From positions 1 through 25,048 of the IMG/VR virus record IMGVR_UViG_3300022929_003074: DNA of 25,048 nt, one strand, 5' to 3'. Below, piece by piece: positions 1 to 24,436 of this stretch; positions within the stretch are counted from its first letter, which is position 1, and each line of letters opens with the position of its first letter. This stretch comes from a virus. Under the pieces are notes generated by a model. That model saw only the letters and a program-made list of their open reading frames with translations. It had not been told where the DNA came from and searched no databases. Made by a program: the position numbers and the translations under genes.

Positions 1-479
1 AATGTTGTGCTAGTAAGAACATTCATATAATATTCATTACCATTCAATTCTGTCATGCCTGCTACGTCTGTAATTGTAACAGCAATACCTTCTGTAAAAC
101 TATGAGGGTTAGAAGTTGTTACAACAACTGGACTAGTTTGAGTTAGATTAGAAATTGCTTGGCTTGTTCCGCCAACTGTGCTAGTAATTGTTATTTCATT
201 ATTACTATTTCTACCAATTGAAATATTACTACCAGCAGTAATTTTTACTCCGGTATAATTAGAATTCACATCATTTAATCTAATCTCAGTCGTTCCAATA
301 GGAACATATAATTGGTAATCAACGTCAATTTCAAAACTATCATTCGTAGCATTGGGATTAAAGGCTACACCTGCGCCACCAGTAATAGTCAGTGTGTCAT
401 CGATGCCATCTGCTTCTAGAGTGACACCGTCTGGTTGTAATAAAATTTTTCTAAAAAAGTCGTAATATGCAGCAGGCAT
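1..479 (-). CDS. Fibre-like virion structural protein, N-terminal part (runs off left edge)
   Basis: An open frame on the minus strand begins with ATG at 479 and stays open for 159 codons to the window edge; the C-terminus is missing. A Shine-Dalgarno-like GAGGA lies just upstream on the minus strand and a late promoter is at 508-516. The protein starts MPAAYYDFFRKILLQPDGV and is rich in Thr, Asn, Gly and Val with alternating beta-strand character, as in phage fibres. Near the edge it has a PHSFTEGIAVTITDVAGMTE-type motif followed by LNG. That pattern recurs in phage tail and fibre proteins and is often labelled an E1 FCCH-like domain. It is transcribed away from the auxiliary block. The coding call is firm; the structural role is inferred from composition and motif. 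Confidence 0.8.
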   Translation of the reverse strand, partial: MPAAYYDFFRKILLQPDGVTLEADGIDDTLTITGGAGVAFNPNATNDSFEIDVDYQLYVPIGTTEIRLNDVNSNYTGVKITAGSNISIGRNSNNEITITSTVGGTSQAISNLTQTSPVVVTTSNPHSFTEGIAVTITDVAGMTELNGNEYYMNVLTSTT

Positions 480-1159: not shown

Positions 1160-1194
1160 TTCCGCGCACTCCATTAACACAGGAGTTTAAAAAA

Positions 1195-1668
1195 ATGGCT
1201 TACTATTCGACTAAAACATACGGACATAACATTGGACTATCAGCAGTGTTCCGTCAACCTAACGCAGATCATTCACACTGTCATCTGCTACATGGTTACA
1301 GTCTAGCATTTAAATTTACATTCGGTTGTAGTGAATTAGACAACAAAAATTGGGCAGTAGACTTCGGTGGACTAAAGCCGTTAAAGGCTTGGCTTGAAGA
1401 TAGTTTTGATCACAAAGTAGCATTAGATGCTAACGACCCGCATCTAGAAAAGTTTCGTGAACTAGAAGCACTTGACTTAGCAGAACTACGCATCTTTGAC
1501 GGTGTTGGAGTAGAAAAGTTTGCTGAACACGCATGGCGTTTTGCTGATAACTTGATTCGAAACGCAAGTAGTGGACGATGCTGGTGCGAAAGTGTTGAGT
1601 GCTCAGAGCATGGTGCTAACAGTGCAATCTATACTCCATACACAACGCAGAAAACTTCATTTGCATAA
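1195..1668 (+). CDS. queD: QueD-like 6-pyruvoyl/6-carboxy-tetrahydropterin synthase homologue
   Basis: This 157-residue protein belongs to the PTPS/QueD family, which converts dihydroneopterin triphosphate to 6-carboxy- or 6-pyruvoyl-tetrahydropterin, the former on the way to preQ0 and 7-deazaguanines. Visible family features are HCHLLHGYSLAF with catalytic-type Cys29, the AVDFGGLKPLK segment, FDHKVAL with Asp72-His73, and the C-terminal VECSEHGANSAIY with Glu135. The usual zinc site is altered: the family HGH is HGY (Tyr35), and the expected SAAH histidine appears as SAVF (Phe19). Nearby His26, His28 and His30 might substitute. An AGGAG site precedes the ATG, and the stop abuts the glycosyltransferase start. 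It has early and late promoters. No other queuosine-pathway gene is in the window, so the product actually made is unknown. Confidence 0.82.
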   Translation: MAYYSTKTYGHNIGLSAVFRQPNADHSHCHLLHGYSLAFKFTFGCSELDNKNWAVDFGGLKPLKAWLEDSFDHKVALDANDPHLEKFRELEALDLAELRIFDGVGVEKFAEHAWRFADNLIRNASSGRCWCESVECSEHGANSAIYTPYTTQKTSFA

Positions 1669-2514: not shown

Positions 2515-3642
2515 ATGATTCAACGTATAGGCTTCGCATGTAAATACATGCATCCAGATCAAAACCAATCTAAGAAACTGCTTGAAGAAATCCAGCGGCC
2601 ACTAAATACAAAGTCAACTACAGTGCAATGGCTTAATCGTCAAAGTCGTAATGATGCAGAGCAACGGCTGTGGGACATTATGGTGCATAATATTGATGCG
2701 TATAGGAGATTGATCGAATATGTTGGAAGTTTACCACAAGGCCTTAGAATGGTTAGACTCGGTAGCGACGTCCTTCCTGTGTACACTCAGTCTGATTGGC
2801 GGTACTATTGGAGACTACCAGACGTTGTCGCTTATTGTGAAAGAGAGTTTGCCAAGGTGGGTGAGATTGCTCGTAGGCTTGATGTTCGTCTCAGTATGCA
2901 TCCTGGGCAGTTTACAGTTCTTGCTAGTGACGATGAAGGTATTGTAGAGAGGAGCATAGAAGAGTTTGAATATCACACCGATGTCATCCGCTGGATGGGC
3001 TATGGCCGACAATTCCAAGACTTCAAGTGCAACGTACACATCAGCGGCCGCAAAGGTCCAGCCGGTATCAAAGACGCACTTAAACGTTTGTCACCGGAGG
3101 CAAGAAACTGTATTACAATCGAGAACGACGAAAACAAATGGGGAATCGACGACTCACTTGAGCTTGCAAACGATCTCGCTTTGGTGCTAGATATACACCA
3201 TACATGGTGCAGAGAAGGAGAGTATTTTGATGTCAATGATGATCGTTTTAAAAGGATTATTGATAGTTGGCGTGGCGTTAGGCCTGTCATACATTATAGC
3301 CTTAGTCGCGGAGAGTTTCTCCAAAACGTACCACGAAATGTACGACCCAATTTCCAAACGCTCATTGACCAAGGATACAAAAAAGCCAAACTAAGAGCGC
3401 ACAGTGATTGGTATACTAATGATGCTGTAAATGACTACGCACTTAGTTTCCTTCCCTACGCAGATATCATGTGTGAAAGCAAAATGAAGAACTTAGCATC
3501 AATAGAGTTATACGAATATGCCAATACCAGAAAAGATCAACTTTCAAAAGGAATCAATGAGCTTTTACGCTTTCAACAATCGCAGAATCAAAGTAACACA
3601 GAAACGTTCACTGCTACCGAGGAAATGCTTCCTGTCTCGTAA
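2515..3642 (+). CDS. uvsE: UV-damage endonuclease UvsE/UVDE
   Basis: 375 residues with the full set of UVDE motifs, a TIM-barrel metalloenzyme that nicks DNA 5' to UV photoproducts and starts alternative excision repair. In order: RIGFACKY at the N-terminus, RLGSDVLP (81-88), LSMHPGQFTVLAS (126-138, metal-ligand His129), CNVHISG (172-178), ITIENDE (200-206), LVLDIHH (223-229), VIHYSLSR (258-265), RAHSDWY (294-300) and DIMCESKMKNLA (317-328). Family members are usually near 300 residues; the extra length is mostly a polar C-terminal tail after about residue 340. It has its own sigma-70 promoter and no late promoter, which fits early repair of incoming DNA in sunlit water. Its 3' end overlaps the next gene by 86 bases. 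Confidence 0.93.
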   Translation: MIQRIGFACKYMHPDQNQSKKLLEEIQRPLNTKSTTVQWLNRQSRNDAEQRLWDIMVHNIDAYRRLIEYVGSLPQGLRMVRLGSDVLPVYTQSDWRYYWRLPDVVAYCEREFAKVGEIARRLDVRLSMHPGQFTVLASDDEGIVERSIEEFEYHTDVIRWMGYGRQFQDFKCNVHISGRKGPAGIKDALKRLSPEARNCITIENDENKWGIDDSLELANDLALVLDIHHTWCREGEYFDVNDDRFKRIIDSWRGVRPVIHYSLSRGEFLQNVPRNVRPNFQTLIDQGYKKAKLRAHSDWYTNDAVNDYALSFLPYADIMCESKMKNLASIELYEYANTRKDQLSKGINELLRFQQSQNQSNTETFTATEEMLPVS

Positions 3643-3769
3643 ACAGTTATGGTTTAAACGCTGCGAAGTAATAAGCACTATGCTAACAGGTCCAGGCGAG
3701 CCAATATTCGAAGACTTCTGGTGTGACGCAAAAGAATTTTTATTACACGAACTAAAACGCCCACGATAA
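3557..3769 (+). CDS. Small conserved-looking hypothetical protein overlapping uvsE
   Basis: I chose the ATG at 3557 (70 residues, MSFYAFNNRRIKVTQKR...) over an in-frame ATG at 3518 because AAAAGGA at 3546-3552 is a good SD site at proper spacing. The first 86 bases lie in another frame inside the uvsE tail. The protein is basic and aromatic. Its C-terminal half, LTGPGEPIFEDFWCDAKEFL, looks like a compact conserved domain rather than random translation. No function is recognised. Its stop codon lies within the late promoter of the following gene. Confidence 0.65.
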   Translation: MSFYAFNNRRIKVTQKRSLLPRKCFLSRKQLWFKRCEVISTMLTGPGEPIFEDFWCDAKEFLLHELKRPR

Positions 3770-3772
3770 ATA
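3765..3772 (+). promoter_or_regulatory. T4-type late promoter
   Basis: GATAAATA, followed by C, ends 18 bases before the ATG at 3791. Only an SD-like GGAGA lies between. It overlaps the stop codon of the preceding gene. Confidence 0.65.
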
Positions 3773-3790
3773 CTGTATGGAGAATATGCA

Positions 3791-4078
3791 ATGAGTTATC
3801 TAAACAAAATGTACGGTAGAAATAAGCCGCAAGAAACAAAAGAATCTAACAAGAATCCTAATCGTGTAGCAGGCGGCTTGCGAGCACAAGGTGTTGATAC
3901 TTTAACTATCTTAGGTGAAGACGGATCTAGTCAAGAGCTTCCTACACTAGCATATGTTCGTAGTTTGGAAGAGCAGTCAAGAAAACAGCGAGCTGCTATC
4001 GCTGTGTTAGAACGAAAGCTGACTCGCCAAGAAACTGCAATAGCGCAGTTACAATCTGCTTTTACGCAGAGGTCTTAG
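3791..4078 (+). CDS. Small coiled-coil protein of unknown function
   Basis: 95 residues beginning MSYLNKMYGRNKPQETKESN. The N-terminal 35 residues are polar and basic and probably flexible. A short beta-like segment follows (DTLTILGEDGSSQELPTLAY). The C-terminus from about residue 58 (SLEEQSRKQRAAIAVLERKL onward) has heptad spacing of Leu, Ile and Ala expected of a coiled coil. The late promoter suggests a virion or assembly role, but no family is recognised. The last 17 bases overlap the end of the convergent minus-strand gene. Confidence 0.8.
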   Translation: MSYLNKMYGRNKPQETKESNKNPNRVAGGLRAQGVDTLTILGEDGSSQELPTLAYVRSLEEQSRKQRAAIAVLERKLTRQETAIAQLQSAFTQRS

Positions 4079-4382
4079 GTTTACGACCACGCTTTGCAGG
4101 CTCTGCTTTAACAGCAGCAGGCTTTTTAGAAGCAGTCTTTGGGGCTGCTTTTTTAGTGGCTGTTGCTTTAGGCTTTGCAGGTGCTTTAGCTTTAGTTGCC
4201 GCAGGCTTTTTAGCTTGCGTTTTAGGCTTTGCAACTGGTTTAGCTTGCTCTTCGTAAGTTGCAGAGTTAGCAGCTACTGGCTTATCACCAGTTGGAAATG
4301 GCCAGTTAGTAGTAGGATCTACTTGAATTGGTTCTGCATAGTTAGTTGTTGAGCTGAATAGATTTTTAATCCAATTAAACAT
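4062..4382 (-). CDS. Protein with Ala/Lys/Pro-rich basic tail (histone H1-like composition)
   Basis: 106 residues. The first 40 or so (MFNWIKNLFSSTTNYAEPIQ..., then DPTTNWPFPTGDKPV) look like a short folded or membrane-proximal head. From about residue 48 the protein is almost entirely Ala, Lys, Pro and Thr in PAATKAKAPAKPKAT-type repeats and ends KRGRKPKTSA, which contains an AT-hook-like RGRKP. Such tails occur in histone H1-like and nucleoid-binding proteins, so nucleic-acid binding is a reasonable inference. An AAGGAG site precedes the ATG and a late promoter lies at 4406-4414. It converges on the coiled-coil gene with a 17-base overlap. No specific family is recognised. Confidence 0.82.
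   Translation of the reverse strand: MFNWIKNLFSSTTNYAEPIQVDPTTNWPFPTGDKPVAANSATYEEQAKPVAKPKTQAKKPAATKAKAPAKPKATATKKAAPKTASKKPAAVKAEPAKRGRKPKTSA
4128..4154 (+). terminator. Possible intrinsic terminator for the plus-strand coiled-coil gene
   Basis: AGAAGCAG and CTGCTTTT can pair (8 base pairs including one G-U) around a 9-base loop, and a run of six T overlaps the right arm. It lies 50 bases past the plus-strand stop codon. It is inside the repetitive Ala/Lys coding sequence of the opposite gene, so it may be a by-product of codon composition. Confidence 0.3.
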
Positions 4383-4400
4383 TTTTTAATTCTCCTTAAG

Positions 4401-4408
4401 GATAAGTA
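4401..4408 (+). promoter_or_regulatory. Possible late promoter for the small membrane protein gene
   Basis: GATAAGTA differs by one base from the GATAAATA used elsewhere in the window and ends 21 bases before the ATG at 4430, the same distance as the clearer late promoters. It overlaps the divergent late promoter on the other strand. Confidence 0.4.
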
Positions 4409-4414
4409 TTTACA
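4406..4414 (-). promoter_or_regulatory. T4-type late promoter for the basic-tailed protein gene
   Basis: The minus strand reads TGTAAATAC, ending 23 bases before the ATG at 4382, with TTAAGGAG as a strong SD between. Confidence 0.58.
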
Positions 4415-4429
4415 GTAAGGAGAACTACT

Positions 4430-4597
4430 ATGATACAAAAGTGGATTATGGCTAGACTAAAAGAACGTACTACACTAGATGGTGCTATTCTAATTGGTGC
4501 TGGCGTAGCGTTTTTAATCTTTAAACCAATCGCAAGTTTAGTAGCATACGGTGCTATTGCATACGGTGCTTGGACACTATTCAAGAAAGAAGACTAA
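4430..4597 (+). CDS. Small predicted membrane protein (55 residues)
   Basis: An ATG at 4430 preceded by TAAGGAG opens a 55-codon frame, MIQKWIMARLKERTTLDGAI and onward, ending FKKED. Residues about 19-51 are almost wholly hydrophobic (AILIGAGVAFLIF, then SLVAYGAIAYGAWTLF), enough for one long or two short membrane helices, with basic residues on the N-terminal side. Short hydrophobic proteins of this form are common in marine T4-like phages, mostly without known function. It is flanked by minus-strand genes, and its stop overlaps the end of the zinc-ribbon gene by four bases. Confidence 0.75.
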   Translation: MIQKWIMARLKERTTLDGAILIGAGVAFLIFKPIASLVAYGAIAYGAWTLFKKED

Positions 4598-4881
4598 AGT
4601 TTACCAATTGGTAAATCACTAGAAGCAGGCATATCCCAGATATGCTTGCGTTCAACACCTTTTCGTTGTGCAAATGTCTTACTATCGCAGGTCTTACATA
4701 CGTGAAAGTAATTATTACTTAGACGTTTTGGATCCATATCTCCTCTAGGGCGTGTAAACTCTACGTCACAACTGTCACATCTAAATACAGCATATGTACG
4801 TTTACGAGTATACGGATGCTCTGCTCCTAATTTACTCTTGCGAACGTGCCGGGTCTCTTCCTGAAATTCTCTTATGAACAT
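4594..4881 (-). CDS. Zinc-ribbon protein of unknown function
   Basis: 95 residues with two CxxC pairs, Cys35/Cys38 (FRCDSCDVEF) and Cys62/Cys65 (HVCKTCDSKTF), 23 residues apart, as expected for a zinc ribbon. The flanks are basic (RHVRKSKLG and AQRKGVERKH), consistent with nucleic-acid binding. Similar small zinc-finger proteins occur in marine T4-like phages, and some resemble the zinc-binding part of HNH-type proteins, but no nuclease motif is present. Residues RLSNNYFHVC look conserved in type. The start has no clear SD. A TGTAAATAT late-like element lies only five bases upstream, so the mRNA would be nearly leaderless or come from another promoter. Confidence 0.8.
   Translation of the reverse strand: MFIREFQEETRHVRKSKLGAEHPYTRKRTYAVFRCDSCDVEFTRPRGDMDPKRLSNNYFHVCKTCDSKTFAQRKGVERKHIWDMPASSDLPIGKL
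4600..4615. repeat. Perfect 16-base palindrome at convergent gene ends
   Basis: TTTACCAATTGGTAAA equals its own reverse complement. It lies three bases past the stop codon of the plus-strand membrane protein gene and encodes part of the C-terminus of the minus-strand zinc-ribbon protein. It could form a 6-bp stem with a 4-base loop, but no T run follows on either strand. Confidence 0.6.
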
Positions 4882-4914
4882 AACTATATTTACATTAAGA
4901 TTATAAAATTAAAT

Positions 4915-4922
4915 AATAAATA
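4915..4922 (+). promoter_or_regulatory. T4-type late promoter for the IscA-fibre operon
   Basis: AATAAATA, followed by C, ends 21 bases before the IscA-like ATG at 4944, with GAAGGA as SD between. No other promoter is visible before the giant fibre gene, so this probably drives both. Confidence 0.65.
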
Positions 4923-4943
4923 CACTAGCGAAGGATTAAAAAC

Positions 4944-5303
4944 ATGAGTATTTGTACAGTAACAGCTCGAGCAAATCATCAAATTGGCAAATTATGTCAA
5001 GAAAATGACTGTTACGCAATCAGCTTAAACCTTAAAGGAGGCGGCTGTGCTGGCTTTGAATACGAATGGGGAACCCTACAAGTAGAAGAAATTGAAGAAC
5101 ATGACTTTGTAATAGCATGTGATCAAGGTAGTTTAGTTATAGGCGCACACAGTTTAATGTTTTTAGCAGGAACAGAGATTGATTATGTTAAAAGCATAGT
5201 CGGTGCAAATTTTGAGATAAGAAATCCTAACGCAAAATCCGCATGTGGTTGCGGAGTTAGCGTAAATTTTGATATGGACAAGCTGGCAACCCCAGCAATA
5301 TAA
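4944..5303 (+). CDS. A-type Fe-S carrier protein, HesB/IscA family
   Basis: 119 residues, the usual size of IscA/ErpA-type proteins, which hold and deliver iron or Fe-S clusters. The three ligand cysteines are present: Cys35 in GGGCAGFEY, and Cys101 and Cys103 in SACGCGVSV. The family segments DQGSLVIGAHSLMFLAGTEI, then DYVKS and ANFEIRNPNAKS, lie where expected. HesB-like genes are known from marine T4-like phages, where the client protein is not established. Here the gene sits directly before the giant fibre gene (14-base gap) behind a late promoter, so it is probably made together with virion proteins. The family call is very firm; the client is unknown. Confidence 0.92.
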   Translation: MSICTVTARANHQIGKLCQENDCYAISLNLKGGGCAGFEYEWGTLQVEEIEEHDFVIACDQGSLVIGAHSLMFLAGTEIDYVKSIVGANFEIRNPNAKSACGCGVSVNFDMDKLATPAI

Positions 5304-5317
5304 ACGGAGTAATTTAA

Positions 5318-8300
5318 ATGGCAAAGCAAAACATTGATATCGGCGTAGAGGGTAATGACGGCACAGGCGATAGTATTCGCGAGTCGTTTCGTAAAGTAAA
5401 TGAAAACTTCCAAGAACTATACGCAGTATTTGGTATCGGTGGACAAATATCATTTACAGATTTAAGTGATACTCCGAACACATACGAAGGTAATGAAAAT
5501 AAAGTTCCGTTTGTTAAGTCAGACGGTAGCGGAATGAATTTTCTTGAATTAGCATCAAACAATGCACTAGACGGTACAACTGATACTATTGGTTTTGATT
5601 TTAGTGTAGACGGAAAGTTAATTTTACAACAATTAGTTTCAAGAGTTGCAAACGATCCAGAGCCAACATTAGGCGGACCGTTAAACGCTGCAACACAACC
5701 TATTGCAAACGTAAGTGTATCACAAGCAGCCATTGATACATTTAACTCTGTACACGGAACAAATTTAACAACAAGTGCATTAGTTATTGACAAGGCATTT
5801 GCAGATAGAAACTATCAAGAAAAATCTGTTGCAGGTGGCGGACTAAGACTACCTGATGAGCCAGCTGATGTAACTCAATACACTCTTACTGCTACTGATT
5901 TAAGTCTTGGACACATGGTTGTTCCTAATCACGGCCTTATTGAAGCATTTAATGGTGCTGCATTTGTGTTCCGTACAACTGGAACTGCTCCATTTGGGGT
6001 TGTAAACGAAGGCATTTACTACGTAAGTATATTTGATACTGATAATATTTCTTTATACGAAACTGAAGAAGATGCAATTAATAAAACAGGACGTATTCTT
6101 TTAGCAGGCGGAACTGGTACATTTACAATTACTGATGCTGCATATGATCCTACATTACCTGGTAATTGGTTAGATAACGTTGCAATTCCACGTAAGAGTG
6201 CAGTTCGTCGCCAAGGCGATAATATGACAGGTGCTCTTAACTTGTTTGATCACCCAGGAGAATTAAAAGGAACTGGATTACCAAATGGTCCAGATGATTT
6301 GCAAGCAGCTACAAAACTATATGTTGACAATGCTGCTTCGTCAAGCCAAGTTAACTTGTATGTTAGCACATCAGGTAATGATTCTCAAGAATTTACACCA
6401 GACGGTAAAGAAGGTCGTAATCCTTCATATGCATATAGAACTATTAACGCTGCTGCCCGTAAAGCAGAAGAATTAATTATTGCAGCAGATTTTGAACCAG
6501 GTCCATATATGCAGACCATGTCATTCAATGACGGCGAATCTCTTGCTTTAATTGCTACAGCAGGTATTGAATCTCCGATAGCAGGACGTAATAATGCAAG
6601 AACACTGATCCTTGCAAACAAAGAATTTATTGCAAAAGAAGTCACTAGTTATATTAATTTTACATATCCAGAATTTGCTGGAACATATAATGAAGAAACT
6701 TGTCAACGTGATATAGGTTATATACTAGAAAGTGCTACATTAGATGCACTACTAGGAAATAACGCAAACTATCTATCACGATGGAGTGGTATTAGATACT
6801 ATGCAAATGTTAGTGCGCAAAAAGCAATTGGCTCACAGCGTGTAGAAACTATTGCAGGTATTGAATATGCTAAAGCTCTAGTTCAAGATTATATTTTAAC
6901 AAACACAGCAGCACCTACATATCAAACTAGAGTTGAACAATATATAGAACCTGCTATTGCACCGGACATACAAGCAGATGATGCTATTTCAGCAAAGTTT
7001 GATATTGTTTTAGAAATAATTGCAAATGGAGTACTAGATGCTCCCGCAGTAGTAGACGGAACAACTACTTATAAAATTAATATAAGAAATGGTAACTTTG
7101 GTTTTATTGATCAGGCAAACCCTGCAAACACTGATATCATTCCAGGTAAAGTTGTACGAGGTAAGAACTCAGGAGCAACTGCACGTATTATTGATTACAA
7201 ATACGAAGCAGGTCCACGTGCTGTAAGTTTACCAGAAACTGACGAAATTGAGGTGCAGCTACTAAAACCAATCGAGTTTGAACCAGGCGAAGAATTAGAA
7301 TATGGTAACCTTGTACGTGAAACACAAATTTCAATTAGAGTTGAAAGCGGAATCTATTATGAAGATTATCCAATTCGTGTACCAGCAAACGTAAGTATCA
7401 AGGGCGATGAATTCAGACGTTGTATTATACGTCCTAAAAATCGTGTGTCACAGTCGCGCTGGGCGAATACGTTCTTCTATCGTGATGCAGAATTTGATAG
7501 TCTAGTACTTGGTAAAAGTTCAATTGAGACTATTAATTACGAAGCTCAATTAGATGCATCAAGAGTTCCAGGAACATATACTGTTTCCGATTTTACTACT
7601 GACAAATTAGGACATTCAGCAATATTTGAAGTTACAGTTGACACCTTTGGGTCGATTGCTAACATAACTGTTACTGATCCAGGCACTAGTTTCCAGGTTG
7701 GTGAATTAATCAGGATTGAAGATAATATTTTAGGTGACGGCGGCGCAGCACCTGTACTATTTACAATTACTAAAGTTCCAAACGGTATTCAGTATATAAA
7801 TCCATTAACAGGATCAGTAGATGGCTATTTTGGTTATCACTACTTAACGCAACCGGCTGCGTTAAAAAATACAGGTCCAGGATATGAAAACATCGGTAAT
7901 TGGGAAACTGCTTCACTCGTATTAATAGACAATAGAGAATTTATACAAGAACAAGTTGTTAACTATATTGAAACTACTTACCCTGCACTTATTGGTGTTT
8001 ACGGGCGTGTAAAATGTGCAAGAGATGCTGGTCTAATTGTTGATGCTCTAGTAAAAGATTTACGTGCAGGCGGCAATGAATTTTCATTAGAAGCACAAGG
8101 CGAATACTATGCAGGTGCAGTCGAAGCGGGCACTGAAGTCGAAACAGTTGCCGGTATTAACCATATCTATACATTAGCTAGTGATTTAATATTAGGCCAA
8201 GAACCTACTACATTGTATGGTCCAGGCGGCGATGTACCAACTAGTGAAAACTTAACATATTCCGCAGACTTGTTTAACGGTAATGCAGATCCAGATTTTT

Positions 8301-17185: not shown

Positions 17186-18739
17186 ATGAGCGAAAAAGAA
17201 TATATTGTAACGTTAAATAAAAATGTAGATTATGCAGCATTTAATCAAGAAATGATTGCTACTACTGGAGCAGGAGACATTCCGTCTCGTTCTGTAGTAG
17301 TTGCAAATGCAAGACCAGGAAGTCAGCGTAACACTCATTATATGCTTACTGTTGAAGAGGCCGCAACACTTGCTGCTGATTCTAGAGTACTTGCTGTTGA
17401 ATTGCGTCCTGATTTAAGAGATGATATTCAACTTGTAAGACGGGCAGTGCAAACTGGAGATTTTTCTAAAACATTAGAAGACCGTGGGTTTTTTATAAAC
17501 TGGGGTCTTCGCAGAATTAACGAAGAAACTAATCCATACGAAAACGATGCTGTTAACGGAAATTACAATTATACATTAGACGGTACTGGTGTTGATATTG
17601 TTATTCAAGATAGCGGACTGCAAGTAGATCACCCAGAATTTCAAGATGCTAACGGTGTAAGTAGAGTACAACAAATCGACTGGTATGCCGAAAGTGGTTT
17701 GCCAGGTACTATGCCAACTGCTCATTATACAGATTATGACGGCCATGGTACACATGTTGCAGGCATTGCAACAGGAAAGGTATATGGCTGGGCTAAAGGT
17801 GCTAATATTTACTCAGTGAAGGTTGCAGGGCTAGAGGGTCCAACAGATCCAAACGTAGGTATTCCTGTTGTAGACTGTTTTGACATTATTACAGCATGGC
17901 ATAATGCAAAACCAATTGATCCAGCAACAGGATATAAGCGTCCTACTATTGTTAATATGAGTTGGGGTTACGGGGCATTATATACTGCCCCTACAGCGAT
18001 TAACTATAGAGGCGTATCACATACAGGTACTGAAATTGACGAAGTAAGTGAGTTAAGTGCATATGGATTAATACTAATAAATTCAAGCACTCCGGGATAT
18101 TACAGATCGCCGGTAAGAATTACGTCTGTTGATGTTGATGTACAAGAAATGATCGACGCCGGTATACACGTTTGTATAGCAGCAGGAAATAGTTATCACA
18201 AAATTGATGTTACTGGCGGTGATGATTATGATAATAACCTAACCAATGACTTCTCTGGAACAATTTATTATAACAGAGGATCAAGTCCGTTTAGCGAGGA
18301 AGCAAATATCGTAGGAAATATTGATTCTGAAATTAATGAAGATACTTTAGAACAAAAAGCACTAAGCTCAGAATCAGGGCCAGGAGTAAGTATCTATGCG
18401 CCCGGAACAAATATTATGAGTTGTACATCTACAGTTAATAGATTTGCACCTAACATCGGTCCTTATCCACCAAATGACAATTTTAGTATTACAAACATTA
18501 GTGGGACTAGTATGGCAGCACCTCAAGTTGCAGGAGTAATTGCATTAAATGCTCAAATAAATCCTAATCTTACTCCTGCACAAGCTAAAGCGTTTCTTAA
18601 TAACGTTGCAGCAACAGATGTAATACATACAACTAGTCTAACTAATGATTATACTGATCATCGCAGTATTAAAGGCAGCAATAATAAATTTGCCTTTAAT
18701 AAATTTAATAGTGCAGTACAACTAAGAATAGGTAACTAA
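17186..18739 (+). CDS. Subtilisin-like serine protease (peptidase family S8) in the fibre operon
   Basis: 517 residues with a complete catalytic set: Asp142 in VDIVIQDSGLQVDHPEF, His187 in DGHGTHVAGIATG, oxyanion Asn335 in IAAGNSYHK, and Ser442 in ISGTSMAAPQVAGVIAL. The first 80 or so residues (EYIVTLNKNVDYAAFNQEM ... LTVEEAATLAADSRVLAVEL) resemble an I9-type propeptide that would fold and inhibit the enzyme before self-cleavage. No signal peptide is visible. It starts 15 bases after the fibre stop with TTAGGA as SD and ends 10 bases before the next adaptor gene. It is therefore co-transcribed with late structural genes and may be carried on the virion or process fibres. The protease call is very firm; the target is inferred. 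Confidence 0.92.
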   Translation: MSEKEYIVTLNKNVDYAAFNQEMIATTGAGDIPSRSVVVANARPGSQRNTHYMLTVEEAATLAADSRVLAVELRPDLRDDIQLVRRAVQTGDFSKTLEDRGFFINWGLRRINEETNPYENDAVNGNYNYTLDGTGVDIVIQDSGLQVDHPEFQDANGVSRVQQIDWYAESGLPGTMPTAHYTDYDGHGTHVAGIATGKVYGWAKGANIYSVKVAGLEGPTDPNVGIPVVDCFDIITAWHNAKPIDPATGYKRPTIVNMSWGYGALYTAPTAINYRGVSHTGTEIDEVSELSAYGLILINSSTPGYYRSPVRITSVDVDVQEMIDAGIHVCIAAGNSYHKIDVTGGDDYDNNLTNDFSGTIYYNRGSSPFSEEANIVGNIDSEINEDTLEQKALSSESGPGVSIYAPGTNIMSCTSTVNRFAPNIGPYPPNDNFSITNISGTSMAAPQVAGVIALNAQINPNLTPAQAKAFLNNVAATDVIHTTSLTNDYTDHRSIKGSNNKFAFNKFNSAVQLRIGN

Positions 18740-23878: not shown

Positions 23879-24436
23879 ATGCTTATGAAAACAGATGAAC
23901 TAGGTATACCACGTTTCACGAATCGTGACCTTATTGATATGATCTATAGTGGTCATGTTGACAAGTGTCATGTTGTATTGTGCGATCCTTCAGATGATAT
24001 AGAAAAGTTTAACGCAGCAATGCGTGAACAATACCTGCCCGAACTTACAAAATATATCCCATTAGATGTAGATCAAAAGACTTTTGATGGTGTATGTCAA
24101 GGTGAATGGTTTATGCCTGACAAATATAAAGAACTTGATATAGGTGCAGATATAATGTCACGCCTAATGCACAGTATGCAAATCTTTGATGCGTATGACA
24201 TGCAAGAAACAGTAGAATGGACTAGAGTTTGCGAAGAACTTGAAGCGTTTGAAGAACGCGGCATGGAAGACTTGCTACGCTATATGGTTTATCTTGTAGA
24301 CTTTATGCGTGAGAATAACATTGTATGGGGCGTAGGTAGAGGTAGTAGTGTAGCAAGTTATGTGCTATACTTAATAGGTGTTCACAGAATTAATTCAATC
24401 CAATATGACCTGGATTGGAGAGAGTTCCTGAGATAA
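23879..24436 (+). CDS. DnaE-like (Pol III alpha) partial palm protein, no catalytic aspartates
   Basis: 185 residues; ATG at 23879 or, two codons later, at 23885. The last 50 residues, roughly YMVYLVDFMRENNIVWGVGR, GSSVASYVLYLIGVHRINSI and QYDLDWREFL, closely follow the bacterial DnaE palm block around [20 protein letters not shown]. In DnaE this is followed by NPERxSMPDxDxDF with the catalytic aspartates, but here the frame stops right after REFLR. No PHP domain, fingers or thumb is present. The N-terminal part (FTNRDLIDMIYSGHVDKC, MPDKYKELDIGADIMSRL) is unfamiliar, though a helical segment before the palm is also seen in DnaE. It cannot be an active polymerase on its own. It could bind DNA or nucleotides or act as a decoy. 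Coding is firm; homology is fairly firm. Confidence 0.72.
   Translation: MLMKTDELGIPRFTNRDLIDMIYSGHVDKCHVVLCDPSDDIEKFNAAMREQYLPELTKYIPLDVDQKTFDGVCQGEWFMPDKYKELDIGADIMSRLMHSMQIFDAYDMQETVEWTRVCEELEAFEERGMEDLLRYMVYLVDFMRENNIVWGVGRGSSVASYVLYLIGVHRINSIQYDLDWREFLR

Follow-up and report, generated by a model that had tools for sequence, protein, structure and literature searches.

The viral record IMGVR_UViG_3300022929_003074 carries, within the 25,048-nucleotide stretch analysed here (the window), a gene for a QueD-like protein in which two of the three histidines expected to hold zinc are replaced, raising the question of whether such a protein can still act as a 6-carboxytetrahydropterin synthase and how it would bind its metal. 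The open reading frame spans 157 codons from ATG to stop (Table 1). Profile and fold both place its product in the PTPS/T-fold family: PF01242 (PTPS) matched with an E-value of 1.6e-13 (51.1 bits against a cut-off of 22.4), and the PHROG 2389 'QueD-like' profile matched residues 3-152 with an E-value of 2e-40. With the AlphaFold model (pLDDT 95.1, pTM 0.89), Foldseek recovered 36 PDB chains at E <= 0.001, all of them PTPS-family proteins or uncharacterised relatives and including E. coli QueD. The structural comparison with E. coli QueD that the initial annotation had proposed returned the same fold, with VIA aligning the model to 4ntm at Z 14.2 and an rmsd of 1.7 Å over 116 residues; the aligned ranges run from 1..149 in the window protein and 2..121 in QueD, and identity in the structural alignments was 19-24%. 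The NCBIfam QueD model TIGR03367 gave the window protein 31.3 bits, far under the equivalog cut-off of 89.25, and matched 80 of 80 members of the class described below at E <= 0.001 (best 8.5e-12).

Table 1. Coordinates in the window of the QueD-like gene, its site residues and two neighbouring genes
Feature	Position	Strand	Basis
QueD-like 6-carboxytetrahydropterin synthase, HGY subclass, 157 aa	1195..1668	+	PF01242, PHROG 2389, AlphaFold, Foldseek, VIA
AGGAG, likely ribosome-binding site	1181..1185	+	9 bases upstream of ATG; read in sequence
Phe19 codon; place of first canonical zinc histidine	1249..1251	+	alignments
His28 codon; proposed replacement ligand for His19	1276..1278	+	His in 64/66 HGY proteins without His19
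Cys29 codon; catalytic cysteine position	1279..1281	+	66/66 and 23/23 HGY-type proteins
His33 codon; retained canonical ligand	1291..1293	+	66/66, 23/23
Tyr35 codon; place of third canonical zinc histidine	1297..1299	+	defines HGY class, 89 rows
Asp72-His73 codons; catalytic pair position	1408..1413	+	sequence and class alignment
Glu107 codon; conserved, opposite PTxEN glutamate	1513..1515	+	66/66, 23/23, 116/117 canonical
Glu138 codon; equivalent of pterin-binding glutamate	1606..1608	+	sequence and structural alignments
His139 codon; proposed replacement ligand for His35	1609..1611	+	His in 83/89 HGY-type
Asn142 codon; class-specific invariant	1618..1620	+	66/66, 23/23; canonical mostly C, A or S
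UV endonuclease UvdE	2515-3642		PF03851
IscA-type Fe-S protein	4944-5303		PF01521

In the alignment with E. coli QueD, whose zinc ligands we take to be H16, H31 and H33, F19 and Y35 of the window protein stand opposite two of the zinc histidines and H33 opposite the third. The initial annotation had read SAVF and LHGY where QueD carries its zinc histidines, and coordinates, motifs (SAVF at 16-19, LHGY at 32-35, alongside Cys29 and Asp72-His73) and alignment bear this out. It had also allowed that another histidine might fall into a canonical ligand place; none does, and the histidines considered below occupy new positions. Beyond these two sites, the window protein resembles E. coli QueD (PTPS-I; PDB 4NTK, 4NTM, 3QNA) in fold, Cys, Asp-His, Glu, CxxxH spacing and one zinc histidine, and departs from it in the changes SAAH to SAVF, HGH to HGY and K to H before the cysteine, in a histidine following the glutamate, and in size (157 residues versus 121). 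The best PDB sequence match to the class profile was A. baumannii QueD2 (PDB 7V0F; E 4.6e-12), which keeps IHGHS and is thus canonical at that ligand, where the window protein differs.

Among the PTPS subfamilies and motifs set out in the accessible text of PMC5041015, PTPS-I/QueD is marked by CxxxHGH with C-x3-H spacing, and the accessible text of PMC5445326 gives FGPAQ for PTPS-IV. The window sequence CHLLHGY fits the QueD spacing but not its final histidine, so that only His33 remains in a canonical zinc place, and the catalytic residues of QueD (C29, D72-H73 and E138) are all present. The C-x3-H spacing and the HGY depart from the PTPS-II signature CxxxxxHGH, His30 at the place of the glutamate and the HGY depart from the PTPS-III signature ExxHGH, and FGPAQ is absent from the window protein sequence.

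Phe19 and Tyr35 are a conserved class trait rather than a peculiarity of one sequence. In two viral scans, each limited to the 80 best among more than 590 relatives and with contigs shared between the two lists, F19, H26, H28, C29, H33, Y35, D72, H73, E138 and H139 were present at 80 of 80 loci each, which answers the earlier suggestion to check Phe19/Tyr35 in phage homologues and led us to reject a private mutation or sequencing error. Across 80 loci from cellular genomes, which reach down to about 35% identity, Y35, H33, C29, D72, H73 and E138 were again invariant, with H28 at 78 and H139 at 77; position 19 was F in 68, M in 4, L in 3, S in 2, W in 1 and H in 1, with one locus uncovered. Extra histidines around the cysteine at 26, 28 and 30 had been pointed out before, and only the middle one stands: His26 (15/80) and His30 (13/80) were rejected as replacement ligands against His28 in these cellular loci.

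Nine named phages encode the F19/HGY form (HD01, Motura, BUCT-ZZ01, BcepGomr, Iggy, RHEph06, R7M, phiSM and phiST), and among the aligned named phages ACP17 has Y19. Three named phage proteins combine H19 with HGY (the second PA5oct copy, pf16 and RHph_I1_18), and three are canonical (KS_A8, Quinobequin-P09 and the first PA5oct copy). Phage PA5oct accordingly holds two QueD paralogues 1.8 kb apart (L091 1706-2224 and 4001-4471), one canonical (HGH, ET) and the other HGY with H19 and H28, an apparent intermediate.

The distribution of histidines over these proteins falls into three patterns. Thinning of 432 proteins at 75% identity left 139 for alignment, and 138 after removal of L339, an incomplete sequence. 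In this set, the canonical combination H19+H33+H35 was found in 48 of 49 proteins without Tyr35, H19+H33+H139 in 21 of the 23 that pair Tyr35 with His19, and the window pattern H28+H33+H139 in 60 of the 66 that have Tyr35 and no His19. The alignment was extended by a sample of 120 genomes drawn from the phylum to which a Bradyrhizobium at its centre belongs, from which 89 regions (30 loci and 59 fetched) were taken rather than every match, plus one region of G031; HGY copies among these 90 were confined to G025, the sample centre, and G031. Rows of this sample without His33 entered neither the class counts nor the tree. The 117 rows of the canonical class were selected for H19, H33 and H35, so that those columns are fixed by selection. 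At position 28, this class showed K in 60 rows, a gap in 25, R in 8, Q in 7 and others in the remainder, and at position 139, T or S in 110 and a gap in 7. The intermediate class (23 rows) had E in 8, H in 7, P in 6, A in 1 and V in 1 at position 28, and H in 21 and N in 2 at position 139. In the window class (66 rows), position 28 was H in 64, N in 1 and D in 1, and position 139 was H in 62, N in 2, T in 1 and G in 1, with no row lacking both. No aligned protein that keeps H35 has H139, and the sole H139 row without Y35 was L339, which is incomplete there.

Exceptions were few: over the 89 HGY rows, position 139 reads N in four, G in one and T in one, with phage phiSM among them, and the two departures at position 28 are an Asn in a SAR86 genome and an Asp in a Maricaulis, each with the HGY gene as its sole PTPS homologue. 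The cellular scan and one viral scan used a search pattern containing EH[GE][AK]NSAI, which favours H139, and one further scan favoured KC and HLH; a scan with no pattern on these columns, after thinning, gave FHYH in 23 of 23 and H139 in 18 of 19 H19 proteins. This distribution suggests, as far as sequence can indicate, that two of the three zinc histidines have been replaced by histidines elsewhere and not simply lost. The initial annotation had offered two proposals, a different mode of metal binding and a changed substrate. The former gains support, since His28 is nearly fixed where His19 is missing (64/66) and position 139 is mostly His where Tyr35 is present (83/89); the latter is not favoured, since the Cys, Asp-His and Glu residues and the C-x3-H spacing are kept and the gene has folE/queE/queC neighbours and occurs as the sole PTPS homologue, as detailed below. 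His139, adjacent to the glutamate, and the compensation itself were overlooked in that earlier reading.

The glutamate requires a correction. Cys29 and Asp72-His73 had been listed as retained catalytic residues together with Glu135, and the first two assignments hold. For the third, we rejected Glu135 in favour of Glu138, which is most likely the catalytic glutamate of the window protein given the conservation counts (Glu138 in all 89 HGY-type and 110 of 117 canonical proteins; Glu135 in 58/66 window-class, 18/23 intermediate and 21/117 canonical proteins) and the fit of the structurally aligned ranges. Lys7 and Asn142 are both invariant throughout the HGY class.

We examined the order of these changes on a quickly built, unrooted tree that comprised 153 rows (the 138 thinned proteins and 15 random rows of the 120-genome sample) and omitted columns 19, 28, 35 and 139. 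With 147 columns for 153 rows, many forks stay open. A branch of length 1.98 (SH-aLRT support 100) separates the 89 HGY rows from the others, and among them the 66 rows lacking H19 form a single group (support 94). Each replacement thus arose about once on the tree. The topology suggests that Tyr35 and His139 would have come first, followed by the loss of His19 with the gain of His28. An independent-pairs test of coupled change found just 1 and 2 pairs; with one or two events on the tree, the pattern is an argument from constraint and not a statistical test, and shared ancestry alone could have produced it.

Cellular genomes offer a view of the pathway in which these proteins operate. From the 80 cellular loci, 28 genomes, which may be incomplete, were picked, and 15 of these 28 were searched for QueC and TGT. 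The HGY gene was the only PF01242 match in 13 of the 28, and QueC was present in 12 of these 13 (all but G034), as was TGT (all but G037). Among the genomes with a second PTPS match besides the HGY gene were all four Bradyrhizobium genomes searched. Eight of the 13 sole-copy genomes are archaeal, with titles reading Euryarchaeota, Poseidoniaceae or Thalassarchaeum, for which marine group II is presumably the common label. Their loci have FolE, QueE and QueC upstream in seven cases, and in the eighth (L167) QueE and QueC at a contig end. Of all 22 archaeal-titled loci, 18 contain FolE, QueE and QueC upstream of the HGY gene; in two others QueE and QueC lie at a contig end, and the remaining two start at the HGY gene. 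In L127, the genes follow one another on one strand as FolE (2722-3291), a QueE-type radical SAM protein (3307-3903), QueC-SelR (3858-4991) and the HGY QueD (4992-5453), with FolE, radical SAM and QueC confirmed by Pfam. Such a setting is what would be expected of an enzyme feeding preQ0 synthesis. Within this archaeal que operon, the gene at L127 3858-4991 encodes QueC joined with SelR, a methionine sulfoxide reductase B domain. Five contigs labelled as bacterial genomes (L107-L111) carry QueDs 77-82% identical to that of the window, and three of them (L107, L108 and L109) have window-type neighbour genes too; they are probably phage contigs in bins.

Within 4 kb of the gene, the nine named F19/HGY phages carry a QueE-type gene in 9 of 9, FolE in 8, QueC in 7 and a transglycosylase in 7, six of the latter as annotated and that of phiSM by PHROG 887. 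BcepGomr, Iggy, phiST and HD01, which together with PHROG 2389 ('QueD-like 6-pyruvoyl-tetrahydropterin synthase') rank among the nearest known relatives, have F19, HC, HGY and EH in common with the window protein; in contrast to theirs, the window gene lies not in a que cluster but beside a glycosyltransferase gene and UvdE, with an IscA-type protein also nearby. FolE, QueE, QueC and a transglycosylase were not seen in the 25 kb of the window. At the 80 nearest viral loci, excluding the window's own, glycosyltransferase was found at 65, IscA-type at 65 and UvdE at 58. We searched 24 related contigs, picked mostly by length from the 80 of one viral scan, and found FolE and QueE together in five: G005, G009 and G014, which share the window neighbourhood, and two from a second lineage. 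Neither was found in the other 19, including contigs of 205, 96, 93 and 80 kb, so a rule covering the entire group seems doubtful. QueC was not convincingly found in the 24. The one weak record is G010, which matched part of the profile at 20 and 15.5 bits and, when neighbours were included, reached 33.8 bits, above the cut-off; we took these matches as other PP-loop proteins. The transglycosylase profile PF01702 had no match in any of the 24 contigs.

G005, G009 and G014 additionally encode a 486-515-aa protein with DSGGFQ or DSGGYQ and FDCASPF (in two pieces in G005), which resembles tRNA-guanine-type transglycosylases (TGTs) at a weak level. An hhalign comparison with TGTs gave E 0.00064 at a probability of 28%, with DSGGFQ and FDC collinear, and the first alignment had given E 0.0048 at 7%; an unrelated control gave 0.57. 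PF01702 did not match this protein, nor did it match the annotated TGT of Motura, and a PDB profile search with the TGT-like protein returned no TGT. At 80 loci with the TGT-like gene, many on short contigs, the neighbourhood included FolE in 42 cases, a phosphoribosyltransferase in 54 and QueE in 20, and neither QueC nor QueD in any, with no HGY QueD within 8 kb. An HGY QueD and the TGT-like gene on one contig were recorded only for G005, G009, G014 and PA5oct. Homologues of the TGT-like protein occur in eleven Pseudomonas phage records, of which PA5oct with its HGY QueD is one, and also in the phage Phosso and a Vibrio phage; in the Vibrio phage, 1.2 kb separate it from a gene of QueF type. 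Among the matches listed in the QueD searches were four of the eleven Pseudomonas phages and Phosso, the site residues being seen only for PA5oct. In three marine phage loci, a phosphoribosyltransferase-type gene (L103 10301-10873, L104 8994-9560 and L105 9337-9885) has folE, queE and the TGT-like gene close by; the TGT-like gene itself runs through two overlapping frames in L103 (14586-15867, minus strand) and one frame in L104 and L105.

Taken whole, the explanation that we consider best, with about an equal chance of being right or wrong, is a working CPH4 synthase that represents a separate HGY subclass, has a rebuilt metal site and serves DNA modification. Its parts differ in strength. 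That the window gene encodes a CPH4 synthase is quite likely on fold, catalytic residues and gene contexts, and a role in 7-deazaguanine DNA modification is only a little less so. The enzyme would convert the FolE (GTP cyclohydrolase I) product dihydroneopterin triphosphate to CPH4 (6-carboxy-5,6,7,8-tetrahydropterin), QueE would convert CPH4 to 7-carboxy-7-deazaguanine, and this compound or a derivative would enter phage DNA, probably via a transglycosylase, in a lineage in which three long contigs have FolE and QueE with no QueC detected. For the window lineage, we would thus expect 7-deazaguanine DNA modification with no phage QueC. The relocation of ligands has a somewhat less than even chance: H19+H33+H35 may have given way to H19+H33+H139 as Tyr35 appeared, and this in turn to H28+H33+H139 as Phe19 appeared. 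More tentative still is the proposal that the zinc site was rebuilt stepwise through intermediates that are still living, with the reaction kept and the metal preference perhaps altered for metal-poor sea water.

The same enzyme might instead bind its metal, perhaps iron or manganese rather than zinc, through His28, His33 and either Tyr35 or water, leaving His139 to contact the substrate; we regard this as less likely than relocation. In its favour, H139 accompanies Tyr35 in only 83 of 89 rows, and the invariance of Lys7 and Asn142 points to a pocket remodelled more widely, whereas the restriction of H139 to aligned proteins without H35 and the retention of three histidines in 60/66 and 21/23 proteins argue against it. 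A family member that makes something else, such as a PTPS-II-like enzyme forming 6-pyruvoyl-tetrahydropterin or one forming a folate precursor, seems improbable. The PTPS-I spacing, the queE and queC neighbours and the sole-copy genomes with QueC and TGT all speak for CPH4 synthesis, against a low score with the QueD model, the second PTPS match in the Bradyrhizobium and other genomes, and a published label: in the accessible text of PMC5445326, AGeNNT clusters with the two motifs CxxxxHGH and CxxxHGY and a FolE neighbourhood are termed PTPS-II-like. Those clusters share CxxxHGY and the FolE neighbourhood with the proteins studied here, but the contexts found here favour PTPS-I over that label. 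A degenerate, metal-free or inactive protein is very improbable. Two canonical ligands are gone, positions 28 and 139 have exceptions, and tandem PTPS domains lacking H19 and Cys exist in the family; the domains in L528, L532 and L542, with H33 and H35 and neither H19 nor Cys, look degenerate, and two further rows have a gap at position 19. Inactivity is nevertheless hard to reconcile with the invariance of Cys, Asp-His, Glu138, H33 and Y35 at all 80 cellular loci, even at the lowest identities, and with the sole copy kept beside a retained pathway.

The CxxxHGY motif has thus already been published, and a search for that string in the accessible literature found no paper besides PMC5445326. 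In the literature searched, whose coverage was mostly of papers outside subscription, we found nothing on relocated histidines and no report of activity for any HGY enzyme. QueD, FolE and QueE of phage 9g complement E. coli deletions, according to the accessible text of PMC6884629. The HGY proteins differ from canonical phage QueDs such as KS_A8 of the genus Seuratvirus. Phage 9g presumably belongs to that genus too, and its QueD is probably canonical, judging by KS_A8. If the preferred reading is correct, annotation rules that demand HGH and three fixed histidines miss working QueDs in phages and marine archaea, the living states H19/H35, H19/Y35 and F19/Y35 make ligand swapping with no loss of reaction testable and would show whether the metal changes along the way, and an HGY QueD may mark marine phages with 7-deazaguanine in their DNA.

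Three further features of the window were recorded. A single TATAAATA lies at 1152-1159, 35 bases upstream of the QueD start, and we take it to resemble a T4 late promoter; this one match compares with 4.1 expected by chance, i.e. fewer. A 185-aa frame at 23879-24436 contains a partial DNA polymerase III alpha NTPase domain (PF07733) and is apparently short, and a subtilase-family protease (PF00082, E 7.4e-28) is encoded at 17186-18739 among large tail-type genes.
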